A DNA stretch of 23,367 nt from a virus. Made by a program: the position numbers and the translations under genes. Where the stretch lies: positions 1 to 23,367 of the IMG/VR virus record IMGVR_UViG_3300011116_000368, one strand, 5' to 3'. Within the stretch, counting starts at the first letter, position 1; every line of letters begins with the position of its first letter. Below, one piece after another: positions 7,531-18,408 of this stretch. Under the pieces are notes generated by a model that was given only the letters and a program-made list of their open reading frames with translations, searched no databases and was not told where the DNA came from.

Positions 7531-8775
7531 TTATGGAATAGACTGAAGGAAATGTACCATTTGCTCAGTTGTGTCAAACTTGTAAGGAGAATCAGCAAAA
7601 TTCTTAGATGTGATTCGGGTTGTAAACTGAAGAGTGGGACTTGTAGTTCTGTGGGTTATGTCCATGCGAACCGACCACTTGTACGGTTTGTCCGTGGGCT
7701 TGATCTCTTTGATGCTGGCAAGTCTGGCAACTTCATTTCCCTTAGCATGTGAAATTTCGGGAGGTAGTTTGTCATTATCATCAAACATATAGAGTTTGGC
7801 CTGACTGGATGGCGTATTTCCTGCCCAATCTTCCATGTAAATTCTCTTTGCTCTGATAGTAGTAGGATCTTGATTGCAGTAGAGATGCCGCACGACAGAC
7901 ACGGTTGATGCTCGGGTATCTGCTTTTGTGTACGATCCTCCGCTTGCTTTGAGTCGAATCTCCACCTGTGCGGCACCCTTACACGCATCGGATAGTCTTG
8001 GAATACCCCTAATGGCGGGTGCGCCACTCAATCCCGTTGAGAATAGTCCTCTTCCATTGATGTAAATGAAATGAACTTTCTTTTGTCTCAAGATATCTTC
8101 ATAGAATAAGATGTTGGCAGAGTCTTCAATATACTCATTGATATTGAAGACAAGTTTATCCCCGTTTTGAGTGAAGATAGTCCCTTTATTTCCAACATCC
8201 TTCCATCCAATCTTGGAGACCTTTCCGAAAGGTAGTCTTCCAGCAACGATGGTCTTCTTATGAAGTTCGGTTGGATCCACAGAAGTTCGAAGATATTCCT
8301 GTATGCGTCGAATCATCTCAAACTTCTTAGTGTGAATTGCTCTCACAATTCCCAGCCAGATTTCTTTATCAACTTGAATCTTCTTTCTTCCACTCTGTAC
8401 CCAGGATGTCTCAGTAACTTCATCTCCACTAGTTGGATCAAAGTTATTCCGTAATCCAATCTGCGTTCCCTGTGCGCTTTCGTCTTTGATCTCAATGTTG
8501 ATATCACCTGAGAATGATGATCCCGCCACCTTGCGTACTTTGATAACCAAGTCAGGTTTATCATTGTCATTACCCGCACTATCTCCAACTGAAAATCTGT
8601 CTTGGCGAGTGCTTTGTAGTAGATTGTTAGCAGCACACTTCATGGATGTTGCAATAGACTTCTCTAGTGCAAACCCATGTCCGCTTATAGGGGGACATGT
8701 TCCCTCCGAAATGAGAATTTCAGGCTCAAGATATTCTTGTTGACGAATGAAATCGGAGAGGCAAATGGGGTTCAT
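7531..8775 (-). CDS. Candidate PD-(D/E)XK nuclease
   Basis: A 414-residue protein, not firmly recognised. Residues about 37-110 carry the ordered signature of a restriction-endonuclease-like fold: a helix with Glu (GFALEKSIATSM), then DKPDLVIKV, then INIEIKDE, then a Gln (QGTQIG), giving E, PD, ExK, Q. The remaining 300 residues show no motif I know. The start MNPICLSD at 8775 was chosen because a late promoter ends exactly five bases before that ATG; MFSDRLN at 8802 would begin upstream of the promoter. There is no ribosome binding site, so the transcript may be leaderless. Degradation of host DNA, exclusion of other phages, or a packaging role are possible. Confidence 0.55.
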   Translation of the reverse strand: MNPICLSDFIRQQEYLEPEILISEGTCPPISGHGFALEKSIATSMKCAANNLLQSTRQDRFSVGDSAGNDNDKPDLVIKVRKVAGSSFSGDINIEIKDESAQGTQIGLRNNFDPTSGDEVTETSWVQSGRKKIQVDKEIWLGIVRAIHTKKFEMIRRIQEYLRTSVDPTELHKKTIVAGRLPFGKVSKIGWKDVGNKGTIFTQNGDKLVFNINEYIEDSANILFYEDILRQKKVHFIYINGRGLFSTGLSGAPAIRGIPRLSDACKGAAQVEIRLKASGGSYTKADTRASTVSVVRHLYCNQDPTTIRAKRIYMEDWAGNTPSSQAKLYMFDDNDKLPPEISHAKGNEVARLASIKEIKPTDKPYKWSVRMDITHRTTSPTLQFTTRITSKNFADSPYKFDTTEQMVHFLQSIP

Positions 8776-8780
8776 AGTCA

Positions 8781-8787
8781 TATTTAG
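8781..8787 (-). promoter_or_regulatory. T4-type late promoter placing +1 at the start codon
   Basis: Minus-strand CTAAATA followed by five bases (TGACT) and the ATG at 8775. In T4 late promoters transcription starts five bases after this octamer, so the start codon coincides with the predicted RNA 5' end. Confidence 0.6.
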
Positions 8788-8824
8788 GCGATCTGAAAAC
8801 ATCAGAAACGATTGCTATTTTAAG

Positions 8825-8896
8825 AGCCACCTATCGGATTTGAACCGATGACCTGTTCATTACAAGTGAACTGCACTACCGCTGTGCTAAGGTGGC
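8825..8896 (-). tRNA. tRNA-Thr(UGU)
   Basis: Full cloverleaf: acceptor GCCACCT/AGGTGGC, anticodon stem GTTCA/TGAAC with loop CTTGTAA (anticodon UGU) and T loop TTCAAAT. CCA is not encoded. It stands alone, away from the other tRNAs, downstream of the 8935-9231 gene. Confidence 0.95.
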
Positions 8897-8900
8897 GAGA

Positions 8901-8918
8901 GTGGCCCCGAAAGGCCAC
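8901..8918 (-). other. GC-rich hairpin between a small gene and tRNA-Thr
   Basis: GTGGCC and GGCCAC form a six-base-pair stem with a six-base loop, four bases upstream of tRNA-Thr. It has no T-run, so it is a poor terminator; it may protect the mRNA end or guide tRNA processing. Confidence 0.4.
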
Positions 8919-8934
8919 ATTGAGAAATTCAGAT

Positions 8935-9231
8935 TTAGAGGTCTAGTCTCTTCGTTCGGCCCTTAACGACCGAACCGCTACTATTGCGAGAAATTCGATT
9001 GTCGAGTTCATTGTAGATTCCACCGATCTCACGACGAATCTCGTCAATCTGATCACTAAAACTGCGACGAATTTCGTCAAGTTCTTGTTCGTGATATCGT
9101 GAATTATCACGAAGATCAATTGAGTCACGGTAACGCTGAAACTCACCATTCTTCTTGAGCCAGAGAACGAAGAAGACTCCTGCCCAAATGCTTGTACAAA
9201 CACTCACCCAGAAACTAACATTGTGCATCAT
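8935..9231 (-). CDS. Small membrane-anchored coiled-coil protein
   Basis: A 98-residue protein of unknown function. Residues 5-24 form one hydrophobic transmembrane helix (VSFWVSVCTSIWAGVFFVLW), followed by a charged, heptad-like coiled coil (about 45-83, rich in Glu, Arg and Ile) and a basic tail. It probably sits in the inner membrane with the coiled coil in the cytoplasm. AAAGGAGGT lies five bases before the first of two consecutive ATGs, so MMHNVS is chosen. A near-consensus sigma70 promoter lies just upstream, so early expression is likely; tRNA-Thr follows on the same transcript. Confidence 0.75.
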   Translation of the reverse strand: MMHNVSFWVSVCTSIWAGVFFVLWLKKNGEFQRYRDSIDLRDNSRYHEQELDEIRRSFSDQIDEIRREIGGIYNELDNRISRNSSGSVVKGRTKRLDL

Positions 9232-9253
9232 TATGCACCTCCTTTGTTGTACT

Positions 9254-9281
9254 ATTATAGGGATCGAACTGATTATGTCAA
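9254..9281 (-). promoter_or_regulatory. Near-consensus sigma70 promoter
   Basis: -35 TTGACA at 9276-9281, 16 bp spacer, -10 TATAAT at 9254-9259, both hexamers perfect. It drives the 8935-9231 gene and tRNA-Thr and starts immediately after the previous stop codon. Confidence 0.85.
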
Positions 9282-9683
9282 TCAGATTATCGTGAGAGAG
9301 CAATAGATTCTGTTGCCCATTCCACGGTAGGTTGCGAAGATCAAAAGATATCTTTCACCCTTCGCCCTCCAGAGTATTCCGGATTTGCTCATTCGTTTAG
9401 TGGTCTTACTTTGCCATCCAGCAACTCTTGAATACTCTTGTATTTCTGACTTCATCTTCGTGGGTATGGTTCCTCGGAAGAAGTATCCCTTGATTGAACC
9501 TGTCCAAACATTCGATTCCTTCATCATCGAAACTAGTTTGTTCAGATGATTGAATCCGGCCATCTTAGACTTTCCGTCTTTTCCAAGATGCATGGATACC
9601 TCTGCCATTTGATCGCTATCGGGAGCGCAATCAGCAGATTGGCATTTCCTTACTCTCGCTATGTTTCGAATTGCTTTAGCCAC
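9282..9683 (-). CDS. Unknown basic protein, GTG start
   Basis: A 133-residue basic protein I do not recognise. It starts with GTG, overlapping the end of the upstream gene by eight bases, so it is probably coupled to it. An N-terminal Cys pair (residues 14 and 19) precedes a Met/Lys-rich middle, and the C-terminal half looks like beta strands (RYLLIFATYRGMGNRIYCSL). No signal peptide is evident. Its stop directly abuts the -35 box of the next promoter. Confidence 0.65.
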   Translation of the reverse strand: MAKAIRNIARVRKCQSADCAPDSDQMAEVSMHLGKDGKSKMAGFNHLNKLVSMMKESNVWTGSIKGYFFRGTIPTKMKSEIQEYSRVAGWQSKTTKRMSKSGILWRAKGERYLLIFATYRGMGNRIYCSLTII

Positions 9684-10080
9684 CGCTCTTCTTCTTTAGA
9701 AGTGTGATCTTGCGTTTGATAGTGGGACGGTTCATAAATTCTTCGACTTCTGCAAGGCCATTAATTTTGTATGCGAAATAAATGCTTGATCTACGACCTT
9801 CAATATCGGTCAACATGACCAACATATCCTTTGAAGGTCTGACACCAATCATATCTGTGAATCGAACAAGATCTTGCTTGATCATCTTTTTGATTTGCGA
9901 CAGATTGTATGTTCCCAATCCCTTCAGATAGATTTCAGGATCATCCACAGATGAACTAAAGTCTATGGTCTGTGCCACTTTGCCACCAACATTGAAAACC
10001 TTCGAATCAGTTTGCTCATTAACCACATTGTTAATGGCATCAATCATTTCTTTACTAGTGTTTTTGAAGGGGTTGTTCAT
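9676..10080 (-). CDS. Unknown protein, late class
   Basis: A 134-residue protein of unknown function with no motif I recognise. It is probably soluble: a polar N terminus, a central LKGLGTYNLSQIKKMIKQDLVRFTDMIG, a strand-rich MLVMLTDIEGRRSSIYFAYK and a basic end (KRKITLLKKKSGG). A late-type promoter ends six bases before the ATG and there is no ribosome binding site. Its end overlaps the GTG start of the next gene. Confidence 0.65.
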   Translation of the reverse strand: MNNPFKNTSKEMIDAINNVVNEQTDSKVFNVGGKVAQTIDFSSSVDDPEIYLKGLGTYNLSQIKKMIKQDLVRFTDMIGVRPSKDMLVMLTDIEGRRSSIYFAYKINGLAEVEEFMNRPTIKRKITLLKKKSGG

Positions 10081-10086
10081 GGTGGT

Positions 10087-10093
10087 TATTTAT
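10087..10093 (-). promoter_or_regulatory. T4-type late promoter with almost no leader
   Basis: Minus-strand ATAAATA followed by six bases (ACCACC) and the ATG at 10080. The predicted start is at or one base before the ATG. Confidence 0.6.
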
Positions 10094-10099
10094 GATGGT

Positions 10100-10384
10100 T
10101 CAATCCTCAAACAAAGCAGTCAGCCCATCTTCCATCTTTGAATAATTAATTACCTTTTCTTCCTTGGACTGAATAGATGTTTCACTTCCATCATCCTTCC
10201 ATCTGATAGGCTCGTAGATTGTCTTGGACGAGGACTTTCTATGGAAGTCATTGAGCCACTTGGCTTCCTTCTTGGCGGCTTCCTCGCTCTCGTAGACGGC
10301 TACGATGTTAGACCTCTCAACCAAGTGTCCCTGTAGGTCATCACCATGCATAATACCGATTGCCCATAGTTTACGCTTTGCCAT
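10100..10384 (-). CDS. Unknown small protein downstream of tRNA-Val
   Basis: A 94-residue protein starting MAKRKLWAIGIMHGDD, of unknown function. It is charged, with a helical middle (SEEAAKKEAKWLNDFHRK) and an acidic end (MEDGLTALFED). An upstream in-frame ATG at 10612 runs through three tRNA genes and is rejected. The ATG used here lies five bases after the end of tRNA-Val; the only good ribosome binding site (AGGAAG) is inside the tRNA acceptor stem. It is probably co-transcribed with the three tRNAs from the promoter at 10650-10677. Confidence 0.7.
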   Translation of the reverse strand: MAKRKLWAIGIMHGDDLQGHLVERSNIVAVYESEEAAKKEAKWLNDFHRKSSSKTIYEPIRWKDDGSETSIQSKEEKVINYSKMEDGLTALFED

Positions 10385-10389
10385 ATTAA

Positions 10390-10462
10390 TGCTTCCTATA
10401 GGATTCGAACCTACGACTTCTTCCGTGTAAAGGAAGCACTCTAGCCGCTGAGTTAAGGAAGC
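10390..10462 (-). tRNA. tRNA-Val(UAC)
   Basis: Acceptor GCTTCCT/AGGAAGC, anticodon stem CTTCC/GGAAG with loop TTTACAC (anticodon UAC), T loop TTCGAAT. Third in the Tyr-Leu-Val cluster; CCA is not encoded. Its 3' acceptor strand doubles as the ribosome binding site of the next gene. Confidence 0.95.
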
Positions 10463-10466
10463 AAAA

Positions 10467-10550
10467 TGCCGAAGGTGGGAGTCGAACCCACACGCTCTTC
10501 CGAGCAGCGGATTTTGAATCCGCCGTGTCTGCCATTCCATCCACTTCGGC
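10467..10550 (-). tRNA. tRNA-Leu(CAA)
   Basis: Type II tRNA with a long variable arm. Acceptor GCCGAAG/CTTCGGC, anticodon stem GCGGA/TCCGC with loop TTCAAAA (anticodon CAA), T loop TTCGACT. Five bases separate it from tRNA-Val. Confidence 0.95.
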
Positions 10551-10551
10551 G

Positions 10552-10636
10552 TGGTGGGAGAGGAGGGACTCGAACCCCCGAAGGCCGAAGCCGGGAGATT
10601 TACAGTCTCCACCCATTGCCACTAGGGAACTCTCCC
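10552..10636 (-). tRNA. tRNA-Tyr(GUA), CCA encoded
   Basis: Type II tRNA. Acceptor GGGAGAG/CTCTCCC, anticodon stem GGAGA/TCTCC with loop CTGTAAA (anticodon GUA), long variable arm, and an encoded ACCA end, which I did not find in the other tRNAs here. First in its cluster, about 14 bases after the -10 box. Confidence 0.95.
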
Positions 10637-10649
10637 AAATCATGCGCCA

Positions 10650-10677
10650 ATTGTAACGCCCAATCAGAAAATGTCAA
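10650..10677 (-). promoter_or_regulatory. Sigma70-like promoter of the Tyr-Leu-Val tRNA cluster
   Basis: -35 TTGACA at 10672-10677, 16 bp spacer, -10 TACAAT at 10650-10655, in the gap after the HAD nucleotidase stop. Predicted start is about seven bases before mature tRNA-Tyr. Confidence 0.8.
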
Positions 10678-10680
10678 TCA

Positions 10681-11214
10681 TCAAAGGCCAAGTTTCTTCA
10701 ACTCTGCAATTGTTTGATTTGCACTCTTGTGATAGATTGCAATCCCGCCCACAGCAGTCCACTCTTGAACATTCTTCTTCCAATCATCGATCAAAATGTT
10801 TGGCTTACCATTCGTTGTTGCATAATCTTTCTTCTGGTGTCGAAGAACAATATTTGAGAAGTATGGCTTGGGATTTAGATTCTTCTCAATCCATTTCAGT
10901 TTATCTGCCTTTGATGACGGTTGCCATGTAGTTGTGTGTGCAGAAAGAATCTCGACTTTGTGCTTACTGATATAGTTCCATAACAATTTACCATCCGGCA
11001 TCCAAGGTAGTTTTGCGAACAGATTCGGATGTTCCTCGTCCATTCTTTTCTTGAGTGGATTGATGTGAGAGTCGAAGTTTTTGTTGGATAAGTTGGGAAT
11101 GTTGTAGAGTTTGGCTACTCCTGCAACAAGATCAACTAACACCCCATCCATATCGCAGTAGATCGTTGGTTTGTGCTGAAATGCTTCAGGGAAGTATTCT
11201 AGAAAGTCTTTCAT
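10681..11214 (-). CDS. HAD-superfamily 5'(3')-nucleotidase-like phosphatase
   Basis: A 177-residue HAD hydrolase. Motif I is CDMDGVLVD with nucleophile D21 and acid D23; motif II is ILSAHTT; a downstream Lys lies in RHQKKDYA; motif IV is ILIDDWKKNVQEW. This set and spacing fit the NT5C-type deoxyribonucleotidases found in many T4-like phages, which hydrolyse nucleoside monophosphates. Substrate cannot be read from the sequence. The ATG overlaps the stop of the upstream PAP2 phosphatase (ATGA), so two phosphatases from unrelated folds are translationally coupled. The sequence begins MKDFLEYFPEA, loosely like the capsid-targeting peptides elsewhere here, but F-P-E does not fit the protease rule. 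Confidence 0.85.
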   Translation of the reverse strand: MKDFLEYFPEAFQHKPTIYCDMDGVLVDLVAGVAKLYNIPNLSNKNFDSHINPLKKRMDEEHPNLFAKLPWMPDGKLLWNYISKHKVEILSAHTTTWQPSSKADKLKWIEKNLNPKPYFSNIVLRHQKKDYATTNGKPNILIDDWKKNVQEWTAVGGIAIYHKSANQTIAELKKLGL

Positions 11215-11894
11215 ATGACTGTCTCCATCAATTTGTTTTTCACAGCGTAGATCGCTGCTCGTTTTCCTGCCTCAAGATCCGATGGATAGTGAACACCGGC
11301 AACTACTCTAGAGTCTCCAATTCGATCTGCAATATCACTAAACTTCTCTGTATACTCAGGGTGTTTCTGCGATAGAATCGTAGCAAACATCCAAGCATCA
11401 AAAGAGTGTCCAGATGGATAAGCGGGAGTTGACGGATCCTTGATTCGAATAACGATTTTCTTACCATACTCTGGTGCGATCTGAAAGGGTCTGGCCCGAT
11501 TAAAATGCACCTTCAAGTAATTAAGAAACCCATCTGTCTTGTCGGTCAATTCATGGAACCAATCTCTTCCATAATACTTTCCAGTAAGAGACTCCGTTTC
11601 GTCTGACCACATGTCGTAATGGTCATCTAGATTGTCCATCCTCTGTGCGAATTCTCTCTCTTCGATAGTGGCTTCCGCCATTCTATTGATGATGTAGTTC
11701 AGTTCATTGATGGTCTTGGTGCTGCTGTTGGGCGGCGGCACATCAAGAACTCTCGACACAGGAACTCCTGACATCAAAAACTTGCTTAGTGATTTTGATG
11801 GATCGTTCTTGTGCTGATCAATCTGTACAAGATACTTTGACTTCATGTATCCGACGATTGTGTCTATCGAATGAATCTGTTGAAACTTTAACAT
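11211..11894 (-). CDS. PAP2-family phosphatase (class A acid phosphatase-like)
   Basis: A 227-residue protein with the complete PAP2 active-site signature: KX6RP (K128 to P136), PSGH (160-163) and SRX5HX3D (S195 to D206). These residues hold the phosphate and form the phosphohistidine intermediate through the last His (H202). There are no transmembrane helices and no clear signal peptide, so it is more like the soluble acid phosphatase/haloperoxidase branch than the membrane lipid phosphatases. It may act on nucleotides or sugar phosphates, fitting the coupled HAD nucleotidase. No ribosome binding site is obvious; the upstream stop is four bases away, so re-initiation is likely. Confidence 0.88.
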   Translation of the reverse strand: MLKFQQIHSIDTIVGYMKSKYLVQIDQHKNDPSKSLSKFLMSGVPVSRVLDVPPPNSSTKTINELNYIINRMAEATIEEREFAQRMDNLDDHYDMWSDETESLTGKYYGRDWFHELTDKTDGFLNYLKVHFNRARPFQIAPEYGKKIVIRIKDPSTPAYPSGHSFDAWMFATILSQKHPEYTEKFSDIADRIGDSRVVAGVHYPSDLEAGKRAAIYAVKNKLMETVI

Positions 11895-11897
11895 CGA

Positions 11898-12266
11898 TCA
11901 TTTCAGTCTGAGTAGATACTTAGTCTGATTCACCGCACCGAGCATCTCGTCACGAATATTCATCAAATCGGTGTTCTTACCGTCTAGCATTTGTGGAACA
12001 TCCTGCGACAGGTAAACAATAAACTCGTCAAGGAAAGCGACAACGGTCTTATTGTCCTTGTAGTTCTCTGCAACGAATGTAAAGTTGTCTTTGGCGGATG
12101 GAACTCCACCCTTCGTTCCAGCGAGTGTCTCAATGAATTGGTCTGTTAATCCATCAAGGGATTCATACAATTTACCGAGTGCTTTATGTTCGGCGTAAGA
12201 CTTGGTTTGCCAGTGATAAACTCTAAGTTGATTCTGTACAGTAAGTAGTTTGGTAATGATGTTCAT
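11898..12266 (-). CDS. DUF5856-like, ferritin/Dps-fold candidate
   Basis: A 122-residue all-alpha protein. RVYHWQTKSYAEHKALGKLYESLDGLTDQF recalls the helix of Dps/ferritin-like proteins (HWxxxxxxxHxxxxxxxD/E), and the family is widespread in T4-like marine phages as DUF5856. Iron binding or DNA protection is inference only: the residues present (H19, H27, E34, D38) could support a metal site, but some Dps ligands are not evident. A late promoter ends exactly five bases before the ATG, and no ribosome binding site is present. Confidence 0.6.
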   Translation of the reverse strand: MNIITKLLTVQNQLRVYHWQTKSYAEHKALGKLYESLDGLTDQFIETLAGTKGGVPSAKDNFTFVAENYKDNKTVVAFLDEFIVYLSQDVPQMLDGKNTDLMNIRDEMLGAVNQTKYLLRLK

Positions 12267-12271
12267 GTCAC

Positions 12272-12278
12272 TATTTAT
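12272..12278 (-). promoter_or_regulatory. T4-type late promoter placing +1 at the start codon
   Basis: Minus-strand ATAAATA, five bases (GTGAC), then the ATG at 12266. The promoter overlaps the stop codon of the small gene upstream. Confidence 0.6.
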
Positions 12279-12415
12279 GACTTGGCTCTGCGGGACTTTC
12301 GGGCGGTCTTGGGTTTACGCTTTTTACCGAATATCGCATCCCAATTCTTCGACCACTTTGAATAATCTACCTTTCGGTAGGCATCTCCCTTTCCTGCGCT
12401 ATGTTTACTCCCCAA
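12275..12415 (-). CDS. Small basic protein, TTG start
   Basis: A 46-residue reading frame with a TTG start: it begins MGSKHSAGKGDAYRKVDYS, continues KWSKNWDAIFGKKRK and ends in a basic Lys/Arg tail. A purine-rich AGAGGGGG lies six bases before the TTG, and the frame overlaps the end of the glycosylase-like gene by 11 bases. The AYRKVDY...IFGKK pattern is familiar to me from short conserved T4-like phage proteins, but I cannot name a family. It fills a 138-base gap that would otherwise be empty. Strong basicity suggests nucleic acid binding. Confidence 0.55.
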   Translation of the reverse strand: MGSKHSAGKGDAYRKVDYSKWSKNWDAIFGKKRKPKTARKSRRAKS

Positions 12416-12950
12416 TCTGAACCCCCTCTATCCACCAGTTTGGCACTTGGACATTCTTCCACTTGGCAAATCTCGCCTTATCACCGAGGTAGTAGTTGCG
12501 ATAGGCGGTGACCGCATCTTCAGAGCGATACTTGTCGGGCATCGCCTGTGCGAACGGTGTGAGATCGCCAAGTGGAATGTTTTTAGGGCAACTACTGAGG
12601 TGAACAGAAATCAACTTCTCCATGGCATGGATCTTGTGATACCGAAGGTTGTACTCCATAAGCATGGCAGATGCATGCTGGTACAGCCATAGGTAATTCT
12701 TGTTTGTACGCATAACCCATTGTGTGCAAGGGTGATGCACCATAGTTGCGAGACACAGCGTCTGATTGCTGTGATCCCAATGCTTCACATTCCTGCCCGT
12801 CTTGGTCACACGGGTAGTTGGCTCACCGTCTAGAACACGATGCGCTGTTGACATCATCTGTGCGCTCTCGACAATCATCTTTACGACATGCTTGTCGCAA
12901 AGGTTTCGTGCGGCCACTTGTGGGGCAGGGTCTAGTACGAAGATGTTCAT
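12405..12950 (-). CDS. Pyrimidine dimer DNA glycosylase-like protein
   Basis: A 181-residue protein of a type common in cyanophages and other large phages, often annotated as pyrimidine dimer DNA glycosylase. Its N terminus is diagnostic: MNIFVLDPAP then CDKHVVKMIVESAQMMSTAHRVLDG. The C-terminal half has KNYLWLYQHASAM, PDKYR and YRNYYLGDKARFAKWKN. Direct similarity to T4 DenV is too weak to see, so the repair activity comes from family annotation rather than from catalytic residues. A good sigma70-like promoter ends six bases before the ATG with no ribosome binding site, so early, possibly leaderless, expression is likely. Confidence 0.65.
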   Translation of the reverse strand: MNIFVLDPAPQVAARNLCDKHVVKMIVESAQMMSTAHRVLDGEPTTRVTKTGRNVKHWDHSNQTLCLATMVHHPCTQWVMRTNKNYLWLYQHASAMLMEYNLRYHKIHAMEKLISVHLSSCPKNIPLGDLTPFAQAMPDKYRSEDAVTAYRNYYLGDKARFAKWKNVQVPNWWIEGVQIGE

Positions 12951-12956
12951 AGAGTA

Positions 12957-12984
12957 ATTGTAACAGCAATTCGAACGATGTCAA
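12957..12984 (-). promoter_or_regulatory. Sigma70-like promoter, start codon at predicted +1
   Basis: -35 TTGACA at 12979-12984, 16 bp spacer, -10 TACAAT at 12957-12962, then TTACTCT-type spacing of six bases to the ATG at 12950. It lies just after the 3' end of tRNA-Pro. Confidence 0.75.
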
Positions 12985-12987
12985 GAA

Positions 12988-13061
<74 letters not shown>

Positions 13062-13063
13062 TA

Positions 13064-13134
13064 CTGATCCGCCTGGATTTGAACCAAGACAAGGAGAATC
13101 AAAATCTCCTGTGCTACCTTTACACCACGGATCA
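13064..13134 (-). tRNA. tRNA-Gln(UUG)
   Basis: Acceptor TGATCCG/CGGATCA with discriminator G, anticodon stem GGAGA/TCTCC with loop TTTTGAT (anticodon UUG), T loop TTCAAAT. A weak U1-A72 pair and G73 are typical of tRNA-Gln. One base separates it from tRNA-Asn. Confidence 0.93.
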
Positions 13135-13135
13135 A

Positions 13136-13207
13136 CTGGTCTGACAGGATTCGAACCTGTAACCTATCCGTTAACAGCGGATCGCACTACCGTTGTGCTA
13201 CAGACCA
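13136..13207 (-). tRNA. tRNA-Asn(GUU)
   Basis: Acceptor TGGTCTG/CAGACCA with discriminator G, anticodon stem ATCCG/CGGAT with loop CTGTTAA (anticodon GUU), T loop TTCGAAT. Confidence 0.94.
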
Positions 13208-13212
13208 ATAAA

Positions 13213-13302
13213 CGGACAGAGAGGGATTCGAACCCCCGGATGGCTTCAAGAACCATCGGCGGTTTAGTAAACCGCAGCATTAGACCACTCTGCCATCTGT
13301 CC
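13213..13302 (-). tRNA. tRNA-Ser with anticodon ACU
   Basis: Type II tRNA with acceptor GGACAGA/TCTGTCC, discriminator G and a long variable arm, all serine-like. The anticodon stem-loop is GCGGT, TTACTAA, ACCGC, giving anticodon ACU with U33 and A37 in place. AGY serine codons are normally read by GCU, and A34 is rare in bacterial tRNAs outside Arg(ACG). Confidence 0.88.
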
Positions 13303-13309
13303 AAACAAA

Positions 13310-13385
13310 GCGTAGTGAGGGACTTGCACCCATGCTCAATCACCGCTTGCAAGTCGATGATCCTATCAGCCTAACGCTGCTACGC
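13310..13385 (-). ncRNA. tRNA-sized RNA in the tRNA array that does not fold as a canonical tRNA
   Basis: A 76-base segment in the exact slot of a tRNA, seven and three bases from the flanking serine tRNAs. Its ends pair (GCGTAG/CTACGC), and a T-arm-like GGG-TGCAAGT-CCC hairpin is present. There is no acceptable D arm; the central hairpin has a seven-base-pair stem (ATCATCG/CGGTGAT) with loop ACTTGCAAG. Read as a tRNA it would have anticodon UGC (Ala) with an A31-G39 mismatch, but a normal Ala(UGC) exists at 13702. The two loops are complementary over seven bases. Either a decayed tRNA or a different RNA. Confidence 0.5.
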
Positions 13386-13388
13386 AAA

Positions 13389-13476
13389 CGGATGGGGAGG
13401 GATTCGAACCCCCGTTGGAGTGTAACTCCAAAGTAGTTTTCAAGACTACCGCATTCGACCACTCTGCCACCCATCC
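13389..13476 (-). tRNA. tRNA-Ser(UGA)
   Basis: Type II tRNA. Acceptor GGATGGG/CCCATCC with discriminator G, anticodon stem GTAGT/ACTAC with loop CTTGAAA (anticodon UGA), long variable arm, T loop TTCGAAT. Confidence 0.95.
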
Positions 13477-13482
13477 TAAATC

Positions 13483-13686
13483 TCACTCTGACAAAAATTG
13501 ATTCTGTTCTTTCACGCTTCTCTTCGCATCTTCAAGGATCTTGCGATCAGCATCAGCATATCCCTCCTTGTACTCCCGCCAATAAGGATCATCAGTCGTA
13601 CCCGATCCAAATGGGCAACGGCTCCTAGATCCGCTCTGTCTGTCGCTGTATCCGTCACGGTATCCTTGTCCTGCATTATAGTTCAT
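13483..13686 (-). CDS. Small protein resembling ribosome modulation factor
   Basis: A 67-residue protein in the middle of the tRNA array. GYRDGYSDRQSG, then RCPFG, then YWREYKEGYADADR echoes the layout of ribosome modulation factor (RMF): GYxxG, CPY, WxxGWxxA. RMF dimerises and inactivates 70S ribosomes in stationary phase; a phage version could tune host ribosomes. GYxxGYxD motifs also occur in unrelated small phage proteins, so similarity is suggestive only. CAGGAG lies seven bases before the ATG, so the gene is clearly set up for translation. It is co-transcribed with Ala and Gly tRNAs upstream and Ser tRNAs downstream. Confidence 0.6.
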   Translation of the reverse strand: MNYNAGQGYRDGYSDRQSGSRSRCPFGSGTTDDPYWREYKEGYADADRKILEDAKRSVKEQNQFLSE

Positions 13687-13701
13687 GGTTTGTCTCCTGA
13701 G

Positions 13702-13773
13702 TGGATCGAAGGGGATTTGAACCCCTAACCCCTGCCTTGCAAAGGCAGTGTTCTACCGTTGAACTATCGACCC
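13702..13773 (-). tRNA. tRNA-Ala(UGC)
   Basis: Acceptor GGGTCGA/TCGATCC (one G-U), discriminator A, anticodon stem CTGCC/GGCAG with loop TTTGCAA (anticodon UGC), T loop TTCAAAT. Confidence 0.95.
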
Positions 13774-13776
13774 GAA

Positions 13777-13848
13777 AGAGGATGACGGGAGTCGAACCCG
13801 CAACATTTGGCATGGAAGGCCAACACTCTGCCATTGAGTTACATCCTC
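13777..13848 (-). tRNA. tRNA-Gly(UCC)
   Basis: Acceptor GAGGATG/CATCCTC, discriminator T, anticodon stem TTGGC/GCCAA with loop CTTCCAT (anticodon UCC), T loop TTCGACT. Confidence 0.95.
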
Positions 13849-13852
13849 AAAC

Positions 13853-13872
13853 CCCTTGCATCCCTGCAAGGG
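13853..13872 (-). other. Eight-base-pair hairpin just upstream of tRNA-Gly
   Basis: CCCTTGCA and TGCAAGGG form a perfect stem with a four-base loop, followed by GTTT and then the tRNA-Gly 5' end. It lies after the stop at 13896. The short T stretch makes it a weak terminator; attenuation before the tRNAs or a processing signal is also possible. Confidence 0.5.
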
Positions 13873-13895
13873 TACATGTCATAAGAGACTTTTGA

Positions 13896-14105
13896 TCAGC
13901 CACCGAACGCCGTAGTCAGACCGGTCGAAAGATGCGACCAAACACTGACAACAAAATTCTTAAGGAAGACCACACCGTTCCATGCGAACGGAAGAAGTCC
14001 AAGCGTGATCAGAAGGCTACGATTGATGCCGACCTTCGAAAGAAGGCACGACAACTTATCGCAACCACCAAACAACGGACACGAACCAGTCTCATTCTTA
14101 GCCAT
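13896..14105 (-). CDS. Small membrane protein with Cys-rich N terminus
   Basis: A 69-residue protein of unknown function. The N terminus carries three cysteines (C9, C15, C20), followed by one or two hydrophobic segments (about 30-57, LLITLGLLPFAWNGVVFLKNFVVSVW). It is probably an inner-membrane protein. The ribosome binding site is strong (AAAGGAGAT, then AAA, then ATG). It lies between the tmRNA and tRNA-Gly and probably shares their transcript. Confidence 0.65.
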   Translation of the reverse strand: MAKNETGSCPLFGGCDKLSCLLSKVGINRSLLITLGLLPFAWNGVVFLKNFVVSVWSHLSTGLTTAFGG

Positions 14106-14131
14106 TTTATCTCCTTTGTTAGAGTTGAATT

Positions 14132-14149
14132 GGGGATGGCTAGATCCCC
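14132..14149 (-). other. Hairpin directly after the tmRNA 3' end
   Basis: GGGGAT and ATCCCC form a six-base-pair stem with loop CTAGCC, starting three bases after the tmRNA discriminator base. There is no T-run; it may set the tmRNA 3' end during processing. Confidence 0.4.
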
Positions 14150-14152
14150 GAA

Positions 14153-14546
14153 TGGAGGCGGGGGGAATCGAACCCCCGTGCTAATACAATCCTTACAAGA
14201 ACCACTTTACCTACATGCTTCCCCTTTAGAATTCCCCATGAGGCCAAGGGTTCCTCATGAGGCTCTCACATGTTTCTCATACGCACACGGCACATGTGAG
14301 TTAAGCCGTTTGTCCCTGGTGCGAGTCCCGAATTTTAAGAGTTGGACTATCGGGATCATCCAACTCTTTCTCACCGTTTTTTAGGCGGCGAGGGCAAGGC
14401 GACGCTGACGAGCAGCGGGCTTTGCGTAAACGAATCTGCGCTTCTTATTGGCAGTTGTTGTTTGGTCACATTTTTAAAGGAGCCTAGTAACCATCTCCTG
14501 CATGCTGTTCTTGTATGTCTTGTCTAGTCGATACCTGTTCGCCCCC
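14153..14546 (-). ncRNA. ssrA: tmRNA (ssrA), ribosome-rescue RNA
   Basis: A 394-base one-piece tmRNA. Its ends form a tRNA-Ala-like acceptor (5' GGGGGCG with 3' CGCCTCC, a G-U at position 3 as in E. coli), followed by AACAGGTATCGAC like the conserved 5' region. The 3' part has AAGCATGTAG and a GGGGG-TTCGATT-CCCCC T arm. The tag reading frame is 14381-14452: 23 codons starting ANKKRRFVYA and ending RQRRLALAA before TAA. The LAA end is the classic protease signal, and the tag is unusually basic and long. CCA is not encoded. The 5' end abuts the stop codon of the upstream gene. It would free stalled ribosomes and mark unfinished proteins; pseudoknots were not traced. Confidence 0.95.
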
Positions 14547-14861
14547 TTAGTTTTGTGTTTCGTACTTACGCTTCCATTCAGAGATAGGAATCATAACGAT
14601 TTCTTCTCCAAACAGATTTGGTTCTCTTGTTGCCCACATGTTCAATGTGTCGGAAGCAATCTTGAGATACTTAACTTCGTCCTCATCAAGAATCCGACTT
14701 GTTGGGTCTCCCTGAATGGCTTCCCAAATTTGGAATTCGATTCCATTCTTCCATGCGGCTCCGTAGTTTCTTTCGCTGATTTCCCGAATCTTGGTCACGA
14801 TGTAATCAGCGAGGACTTCACGAATGCAAGTACTTTGAGATGTCTGTGTAGAGTTTTCCAT
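14547..14861 (-). CDS. Unknown protein directly upstream of tmRNA
   Basis: A 104-residue protein starting MENSTQTSQSTC, of unknown function. It looks soluble and mostly helical, with blocks EVLADYIVTKIREIS and DEDEVKYLKIASDTLNMWA. The start at 14861 is used because an upstream in-frame ATG (14897) would lie inside the promoter. The leader is only about nine bases without a ribosome binding site. The stop codon TAA is followed immediately by the first base of the tmRNA, so translation and tmRNA maturation share one transcript. Confidence 0.65.
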   Translation of the reverse strand: MENSTQTSQSTCIREVLADYIVTKIREISERNYGAAWKNGIEFQIWEAIQGDPTSRILDEDEVKYLKIASDTLNMWATREPNLFGEEIVMIPISEWKRKYETQN

Positions 14862-14876
14862 GTCGATGTTGGAGTA

Positions 14877-14904
14877 AGTATAAAGGACTTTGTGCAATTG
14901 TCAA
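14877..14904 (-). promoter_or_regulatory. Sigma70-like promoter of the tmRNA-tRNA transcript
   Basis: -35 TTGACA at 14899-14904, 16 bp spacer, -10 TATACT at 14877-14882. It overlaps the stop of the upstream gene and probably drives the 14547 gene, tmRNA, two small genes and the main tRNA array. Confidence 0.75.
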
Positions 14905-15191
14905 GAGACACGAATCAGAATGTAAGCATAATCTTTTCCAGTTGGAATCGAACTGATACTAACGATCTTACGATCATCTTTCACTACACCAAATGTATCA
15001 GTGATCGTATCGTTCAATTGAACAAATGGACCACCTTCTAAGTCGATGTATTCGATGGTCTTGGGATCATCATTGAAGCATCCCCTAGTAAACATCGTGA
15101 CTCCCTCAAGAGAATAGAGATTCTCTTCGATCTTCTTTATGATTCTATCCTGACCGTATCGGCTCTTGAATGCCCAACTATTCTTTTTCAT
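14901..15191 (-). CDS. Unknown small protein
   Basis: A 96-residue protein starting MKKNSWAFKSRYGQD, unknown. The second half looks like a small beta-rich domain (TIEYIDLEGGPFVQLNDTITDTFGVV, then IVSISSIPTGKDYAYILIRVS). The start at 15191 overlaps the previous gene by 14 bases; an earlier in-frame ATG at 15311 would overlap that gene heavily and encode an unlikely basic stretch. AAGGTG lies about nine bases upstream. Confidence 0.55.
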   Translation of the reverse strand: MKKNSWAFKSRYGQDRIIKKIEENLYSLEGVTMFTRGCFNDDPKTIEYIDLEGGPFVQLNDTITDTFGVVKDDRKIVSISSIPTGKDYAYILIRVS

Positions 15192-15399
15192 TTTCAGTTT
15201 CACCTTCGTGCTGCGGCGTAAACTCCACACCATCTTCTTTCGTAAAGTCTGCCGCATACTCACCCGCTTTACGCCAAAGAGCAGGATCCATTTCTTTGAC
15301 ATAGGAAGCAAAGTTAAGAGAGAACTTGACCAGTGCGATCAAGGTCTTTCTATCCTCCTTTTCCCAGTGGATTCCACTCTTATCGTCTTCCATATACAT
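15178..15399 (-). CDS. Unknown small acidic protein
   Basis: A 73-residue acidic protein of unknown function with an N-terminal charged stretch, a helical centre (TLIALVKFSLNFASYVKEM) and a Glu-rich end. It lies after tRNA-Leu(UAA). No strong ribosome binding site is seen before ATG 15399 or the next ATG at 15393 (MEDDKSG), either of which may be the start. Confidence 0.55.
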   Translation of the reverse strand: MYMEDDKSGIHWEKEDRKTLIALVKFSLNFASYVKEMDPALWRKAGEYAADFTKEDGVEFTPQHEGETENEKE

Positions 15400-15421
15400 C
15401 TACTTATGTTACTTCTTCGAA

Positions 15422-15504
15422 TGACCAAGGGGGGGATCGAACCCCCACGCCGTTAAGGCGGCAGATTTTAAGTCTGCTGCGTCTGCCAGTTCCGCCACAA
15501 GGCC
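15422..15504 (-). tRNA. tRNA-Leu(UAA), weak acceptor stem
   Basis: Type II tRNA with anticodon stem GCAGA/TCTGC, loop CTTAAAA (anticodon UAA), long variable arm and T arm GGGGG-TTCGATC-CCCCC. The acceptor GGCCTTG/CTTGGTC has two adjacent T-T mismatches at positions 5 and 6 and one G-T pair, so it may be impaired. Confidence 0.88.
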
Positions 15505-15523
15505 AATGATTCCTTTCCTTAAA

Positions 15524-15607
15524 TGACTTTGGTGGGAGTCGAACCCACAAGGATGTTACTCCGAAGGTTTCTAAAACCTTTGCGTATGCCAGTTCCGCCA
15601 CAAAGTC
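15524..15607 (-). tRNA. tRNA-Leu(UAG)
   Basis: Type II tRNA. Acceptor GACTTTG/CAAAGTC fully paired, anticodon stem AAGGT/ACCTT with loop TTTAGAA (anticodon UAG), T loop TTCGACT. Its 5' half is very similar to the neighbouring tRNA-Leu(UAA), suggesting duplication. Confidence 0.95.
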
Positions 15608-15610
15608 GAA

Positions 15611-15683
15611 TGCTTCGGGTGGGGATCGAACCCACGACTTACTGGTTAAAAGCCAGTTACTCTACCAACTGAGTTACCGAAGC
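15611..15683 (-). tRNA. tRNA-Lys(UUU)
   Basis: Acceptor GCTTCGG/CCGAAGC, anticodon stem ACTGG/CCAGT with loop CTTTTAA (anticodon UUU), T loop TTCGATC. Confidence 0.95.
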
Positions 15684-15688
15684 GAAAG

Positions 15689-15762
15689 CGTCCCCGACAG
15701 GATTCGAACCTGTGACTTACTGCTTAGAAGGCAGTTACTCTATCCAACTGAGTTACGGAGAC
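15689..15762 (-). tRNA. tRNA-Arg(UCU)
   Basis: Acceptor GTCTCCG/CGGGGAC with one T-G pair, discriminator G, anticodon stem ACTGC/GCAGT with loop CTTCTAA (anticodon UCU), T loop TTCGAAT. First tRNA of the array, ten bases after the previous stop. Confidence 0.95.
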
Positions 15763-17391: not shown

Positions 17392-18408
17392 TCACTTAGA
17401 TTTGCTGGTTTCAGGATATATCAAATCAAGAGTTTTTGATAATGCTTCTTTATCCTCATTCGGAGCCAAGAGACTCATGAACCAATTGATTCTCTCCATC
17501 TGACTATCATCTATTCCTTGCTTTCCTGCCTTCTTCAGACGGAAGTATGAAAAGTCTTTTGCCCATTCAGTAGGAAGTTTATTCCAATCTCTCTCAACTC
17601 CCTTTTCGTATGGCTTTCCAACATAACCCGGCAGTAGCAAATTTCCTTCTTTGTCTCTCGCAGCAAGTGACTGTCCACCGACCTTTTTTGTATCAGTTCC
17701 AGCATATTGCCAAGACATGTCCCCCAATTTTTGTTTTGGTCCACCAATGATCACCGCAACATCACCATTGATGTTTAATTTACTATAATCTCCGAATACC
17801 AACTTGTCCATTGTCATTTTTGCGCCGATGTGCGTATCCAATAAAATGTCGTTGAAGATCCTTCTTCCTCTTTGGTAATTCTGACGAAGAGCAATTTTAT
17901 AGTCAGTCAAAACCCAAACGATATGAATATTTTCTGGCTTGTACCCCGCAGCACGAAGAGTACCTACAATTTCATAAGCATCTTTTTGTGACTTAAGAGT
18001 GCAGTCGAACATCAAATTTGGTAAGTATGTTCTAGTTCCACCTGGATTAAACAATATCTGTGAGATTCGCTTCTCTTCAGGATCAAAATTCTTCATGAGT
18101 TGATGCAACTTGGATGTATGCTCAGGGTTTCGCATGTCCATTCCAGTTACTTGTGGAAGTAGAACTTGCATTTTCGGACTCAGCCCAACTCTTTGAGCAG
18201 ACTTAGATAACTTAATCACTAGTTCTTTAAGGTCATCAACATTTAGAATTTTGTAGTTTTCGCCCTGAATAAAGTGATTTGTGGCAAATGTTTTTCCTGA
18301 TCCTGCTCCTCCTGAAAGAATTACCACTTGCTCATACTTCTTTCCACCACCAAGAATAAGCAACTTTTCTTCTAAGTACTCTCTGAATTTATTGTATGTC
18401 TTAATCAT
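17392..18408 (-). CDS. P-loop kinase (zeta-toxin-like) with capsid-targeting-like N terminus
   Basis: A 338-residue P-loop protein. Walker A is GGAGSGKT (33-40), then NVDDL, then MFDCTLKSQKDAYEIVGTLRAAGY, then VWVLTDYKIALRQNYQRGRRIF. This layout (P-loop, D, T..., R-rich lid) is typical of zeta-toxin or polynucleotide-kinase-like phosphotransferases; substrate is unknown. The N terminus MIKTYNKFREYLEE resembles T4 internal-protein targeting peptides, with L-E-E at 12-14. GGAG precedes the ATG by about six bases. It directly follows three genes with clearer targeting peptides, so it may be packaged and injected. Confidence 0.7.
   Translation of the reverse strand: MIKTYNKFREYLEEKLLILGGGKKYEQVVILSGGAGSGKTFATNHFIQGENYKILNVDDLKELVIKLSKSAQRVGLSPKMQVLLPQVTGMDMRNPEHTSKLHQLMKNFDPEEKRISQILFNPGGTRTYLPNLMFDCTLKSQKDAYEIVGTLRAAGYKPENIHIVWVLTDYKIALRQNYQRGRRIFNDILLDTHIGAKMTMDKLVFGDYSKLNINGDVAVIIGGPKQKLGDMSWQYAGTDTKKVGGQSLAARDKEGNLLLPGYVGKPYEKGVERDWNKLPTEWAKDFSYFRLKKAGKQGIDDSQMERINWFMSLLAPNEDKEALSKTLDLIYPETSKSK

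Follow-up and report, generated by a model that had tools for sequence, protein, structure and literature searches.

The stretch of DNA analysed here (the window) is a virus record of 23,367 bases that carries regA, gp44 and gp45, on the basis of which it can be assigned to the T4-like phages. The nearest cultured relatives of its gp44, at 55-57% identity, are those of the Pelagibacter phages Mosig and HTVC008M and the Methylophilales phage Melnitz, and its similarity to cultured phages at the DNA level is minimal. The minus strand of the window encodes a cluster of 15 tRNAs (8824-15762(-)), none of which has a CCA directly after its predicted 3' end, and within this cluster lies a one-piece tmRNA gene of 394 nt (14153-14546(-)), for which CCA is not encoded either. 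Its tRNA neighbors, as called by ARAGORN, are a tRNA-Leu(taa) upstream (15421-15505(-)) and a tRNA-Gly(tcc) downstream (13777-13848(-)). Immediately preceding it, in the same orientation, is a small ORF (14547-14897(-)) with a 90% identical relative in contig L122. A sigma70-like candidate promoter, TTGACA-16-TATACT (14877-14904(-)), is located about 358 nt before the tmRNA; comparable sites occur in related contigs at -359 (TTGACA-17-TATAAT) and -334 (TTGACA-16-TACAAT), i.e. 334-359 nt upstream of the tmRNA in the lineages termed A and B below, while none was found upstream of the tmRNA in lineages C and D and the number of these sites in the region does not exceed that in shuffled sequences. 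Elsewhere, the window codes for a trypsin-like protease (PF13365; 6716-7462(-)) with an apparent N-terminal signal segment that adjoins the sliding clamp gene, for a 423-aa ORF (7531-8802(-)) lacking a match in Pfam or in 50,697 phage records, and for a PHROG 5268 protein (17392-18408(-)), for which a Morganella phage relative carries an annotation as a protein with a zeta-toxin domain.

The tmRNA is a bacterial RNA that frees stuck ribosomes and marks the unfinished protein for destruction. The initial annotation had recognized a complete tmRNA at this locus, and this reading is upheld by independent searches: ARAGORN calls a tmRNA at exactly 14153-14546(-) with the predicted tag ANKKRRFVYAKPAARQRRLALAA*, and a covariance-model search, set beforehand as a check, recovered a full-length match to Rfam RF00023 (14150-14546(-); 97.8 bits, E 2e-37, against a gathering score of 47). 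The acceptor stem is formed by a 5' strand GGGGGCG (14540-14546(-)), which contributes the G of a G3:U70 pair, and a 3' strand CGCCTCC followed by the discriminator A (14153-14160(-)). Adjacent to the latter is the T-arm, GGGGG TTCGATT CCCCC (14161-14177(-)), with its GGGGG/CCCCC stem. Four H-type pseudoknots, the absence of which would have counted against a tmRNA, can be drawn from the helices and in part by reading the sequence: PK1 (14463-14499(-); AGGAG/CTCCT and GGTTAC/GTGACC), PK2 (14326-14368(-); AAGAGTTGGAT/GTCCAACTCTT and TCCCGA/TCGGGA), PK3 (14265-14323(-); CGCAC/GTGCG and CTCACATGT/ACATGTGAG) and PK4 (14222-14262(-); CCTCATGAGG/CCTCATGGGG from the helices, and CCCTT/AAGGG read from the sequence). 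A hairpin, CTCGCCG/CGGTGAG (14370-14392(-)), spans the stop codon of the tag. The MFE z-score is -2.4, and dinucleotide shuffles would not be expected to contain the 5' motif of the tmRNA. A permuted, two-piece tmRNA of the kind seen in Melnitz was considered and ruled out, given the standard gene order and the lack of any permutation in the ARAGORN report.

Orthologous tmRNAs were recovered from other uncultured phages, which fall into four lineages: A (the window and L113), B (L114, L117, L119 and L120), C (L154/L171 and L359) and D (L155, L474 and L476). The gene is common to viral contigs with sliding clamps 98% or 80% identical to that of the window; it was not found in three of the contigs at 80% (L115, L116 and L118), of which L115 starts just before the tRNA-Gly, i.e. 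at the expected place of the tmRNA. It is also present at the corresponding place in the distant contigs L154, L171 and L155, whose neighboring protein is about 40% identical, and in L359, L474 and L476, which were found by pattern. Throughout, it lies after a tRNA-Leu and, wherever the contig continues, before a tRNA-Gly(tcc). All orthologues score 77.7-103.8 bits with RF00023, above the cut-off; the lowest of these, in L155 (10484-10823), was missed by ARAGORN, and surveys with ARAGORN alone therefore undercount phage tmRNAs.

Comparison of eight distinct sequences revealed that all 18 counted pairs are kept and that four of these have changed on both sides, a covariation score that none of 500 shuffles reached and that fell when the partner strand was slid; the count took in pairs of the acceptor, the T-stem and the second stem of PK1, with PK2-PK4 of lineages C and D left out. 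The G-U at G3:U70 is present in all eight, while elsewhere in the acceptor a G-C pair is replaced by U-A, and the second stem of PK1 changes from GGTTAC/GTGACC to CCATGC/GTATGG across lineages. Within lineage B, the 11-bp stem of PK2 likewise displays a compensatory G-C to A-U change.

The tag frame runs from the resume codon GCC, at the position of the GCA in the Rfam consensus, to the degron end and its stop (GCC...GCC TAA; 14381-14452(-)), and encodes ANKKRRFVYAKPAARQRRLALAA*. The earlier reading of a 23-codon frame ending in LALAA thus agrees with the ARAGORN frame, and the end persists as (L/Y)ALAA in the syntenic orthologues of all lineages, which encode ANNKSRFVYAKPVARQRRLALAA, ARFNKKQSRRLALAA, AKFNKKQSRRLALAA and the short form ANKQTRRYALAA. 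Between lineages A and C the codons for RRLALAA differ at six sites, all of them synonymous (P ~4e-4 under uniform random substitution; ~0.10 for RR alone). Three of the four tag differences between lineages A and B are non-synonymous (N for K, S for R and V for A), two of which remove positive charges, indicating a looser constraint on the upstream half. Nor is the tag as a whole clearly better conserved than the remaining RNA: the two are 94.4% and 95.3% identical between the window and L114, as against 100% and 92.7% between L155 and L476. Taken together, the covariation in the acceptor and PK1 and the retention of RR(L/Y)ALAA through synonymous changes make both the RNA structure and the tag peptide look selected.

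The charge of the tag is out of the ordinary. It contains eight Lys/Arg (one fewer than the approximate count first given) and no Asp/Glu, a combination seen in none of the 5,248 stretches of 23 residues in the proteins that the window encodes. We compared it with other ARAGORN-predicted tags, namely 123 distinct ones from viral contigs picked by pattern and 143 distinct ones from bacteria, mainly samples of five phyla that exclude Actinomycetota, Bacteroidota, Cyanobacteriota and Bacillota. The bacterial tags range in net charge from -5 to +3 (mean -1.3) and the viral ones from -8 to +8, with the upper end of the viral range formed by the present phage clade (+8, +6, +5 and +5), together with L255 (+6), L190 (+4) and L438 (+4; a two-piece prediction whose tag contains acidic residues). 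The proposal of an unusually basic tag is therefore supported: the +8 and +6 of the clade lie above all 143 bacterial tags from the five phyla, and basic tags are found again and again across four phage lineages; the clade's short form stands at +3. An RRxALAA end is exclusive to the clade among the sampled tags. The length of the tag, also remarked on initially, is ordinary and was discarded as an oddity, since 17% of the sampled bacterial and 21% of the sampled viral tags have at least 23 residues. A tmRNA database of 97,179 sequences gives 10 as the most frequent tag length, and a search by term of the paper describing it found no passage on tag charge (PMC11915505). Strongly basic tags were also noticed in L255 (7857-8222; GKKIVKFSPRRAALKVA) and L190 (5039-5423(-); GNKNRVRAFGFKSRELALAA), which are unrelated to the window phage as far as seen; the tmRNA of L255 is also found among tRNAs.

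In its full-length match to RF00023, G3:U70 pair, T-arm, four pseudoknots, Ala resume codon and (L/Y)ALAA end, the window tmRNA resembles the one-piece ssrA of bacteria, from which it differs in being phage-borne within a tRNA cluster, in lacking an encoded CCA and in its strongly basic, acid-free tag. Phage tmRNAs in general are already known: they were counted in 402 of 18,146 phage genomes, or 2.3% (PMC9004378), and they occur in cultured phages, so that their description as rare in phages holds only with this qualification. Among these, Melnitz also combines a tmRNA with a T4-like genome, but its ssrA is two-piece and placed under a glutamine riboswitch (PMC9004378), whereas the window gene is not permuted and no such riboswitch was found in the window. 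The tmRNAs of Streptomyces phage Faust (tag ANSKNASAYALAA) and Enterococcus phage 113 share the T-arm end of the window tmRNA, but their similarity to it is confined to about 30 bases at the 3' end; the tag of Faust, unlike that of the window, is not strongly basic. The 50,697 cultured phage records yielded no homologous tmRNA beyond this 3' end. Pseudomonas phage pf16, again T4-like, carries another part of the ssrA/ClpXP pathway, an SspB-like protein (PMC5587285); it is without a tmRNA, while no SspB was found in the window-type phages.

Could the tag simply be a copy or close derivative of a host tag, with its basic character reflecting the host? The ssrA genes of Melnitz and its relatives do group with bacterial lineages (PMC9004378), and the short form ANKQTRRYALAA has an ordinary AN...YALAA frame. 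However, the exact 5' end of the tmRNA is absent from the genomes of ~85,000 species, 13 genome contigs match it more loosely and encode unrelated tags where a tag is predicted, and no bacterial orthologue was found. Moreover, the 143 distinct bacterial tags from the five phyla reach +3 at most and include no RRxALAA end, and tag length and upstream sequence vary among the phage lineages. We accordingly regard a host-derived tag as rather unlikely.

The anatomy, synteny and covariation of the RNA and the conservation of its tag lead us to consider it quite probable that the gene specifies a functional, phage-borne one-piece tmRNA that is transcribed, matured, charged with alanine and used for tagging by way of host SmpB. 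It would be transcribed together with the surrounding tRNAs and matured to the CCA end by host enzymes; the G3:U70 pair points to charging with alanine. Searches of the related records, one of them of 147 kb, found no smpB, clpP or sspB, so that the phage presumably relies on the SmpB and the proteases of its host. The charged RNA would then be delivered with host SmpB to stalled ribosomes, where the nascent chain would receive Ala followed by ANKKRRFVYAKPAARQRRLALAA. The likely benefit is that ribosome recycling would be sustained during infection.

In view of the tRNA cluster, the tmRNA may plausibly help to keep up supply while host RNAs are under attack (PMC10264068, PMC11090510), and in its stronger form this idea would make the tmRNA mainly an anti-defense device, replacing host tmRNA or tRNAs lost to nucleases during infection, with the tag being incidental. 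Its place in a 15-tRNA cluster fits such a role, phage tRNAs have been proposed to counter depletion of host tRNAs (PMC10264068), and an interaction with tmRNA has been predicted for certain restriction systems (PMC11090510). A purely structural replacement, however, would not need the peptide-level constraint apparent in the C-terminal tag codons, and we give this stronger form a limited chance of being correct.

As for the fate of the tagged protein, all lineages present the C-terminal ClpXP ssrA degron, (L/Y)ALAA, and ClpX depends most on the C-terminal Ala-Ala (PMC7652416). The retention of this end in every lineage makes ClpXP-type degradation the default expectation and argues for ordinary degradation of the tagged product, which would remain a ClpXP-type substrate, and against the earlier suggestion of a different protease; the RNA affinity suggested alongside it likewise found no support. 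The acid-free, Arg-Arg-bearing stretch would most likely alter delivery of the tag or the grip on it, for instance through failure to bind an SspB-type adaptor, rather than recruit a new protease; the lack of an acidic segment of the SspB type, together with the poor grip of ClpX on charged side chains that abut a folded domain (PMC6677533), could affect delivery or speed. One could go further and propose that the clade has reprogrammed its trans-translation tag, the acid-free Arg-Arg sequence being selected to alter the fate of tagged proteins during infection (by a change of adaptor, by slowed degradation or by binding to nucleic acids) without loss of ribosome rescue, a proposal that we put forward only tentatively and think unlikely as a whole. 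More doubtful still is a tag that protects or re-purposes proteins, in which weaker handling by ClpXP/ClpAP or an affinity for nucleic acids would allow recycling without ordinary degradation, or rerouting: acid-free Arg-Arg tags in four phage lineages, their absence from the bacterial sample and the poor grip of ClpX on charge would suit it, whereas the preserved ClpX-recognized end and the failure to find a phage protease or adaptor speak against it. Finally, ssrA serves as an integration site for many phages, which carry pieces of the gene, but it is very improbable that the window tmRNA is a host ssrA in decay or without activity, in view of the complete structure, the compensatory changes, the synteny across diverged phages and the lack of an integrase among the annotated genes of the window.

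Within the papers and collections searched, the basic, acid-free tag appears to be new, as does the conservation of its RR(L/Y)ALAA end throughout a clade of phages. A tag chemistry that is consistently unlike that of the sampled bacterial tags and is kept in related phages offers a simple handle on why phages carry tmRNA.
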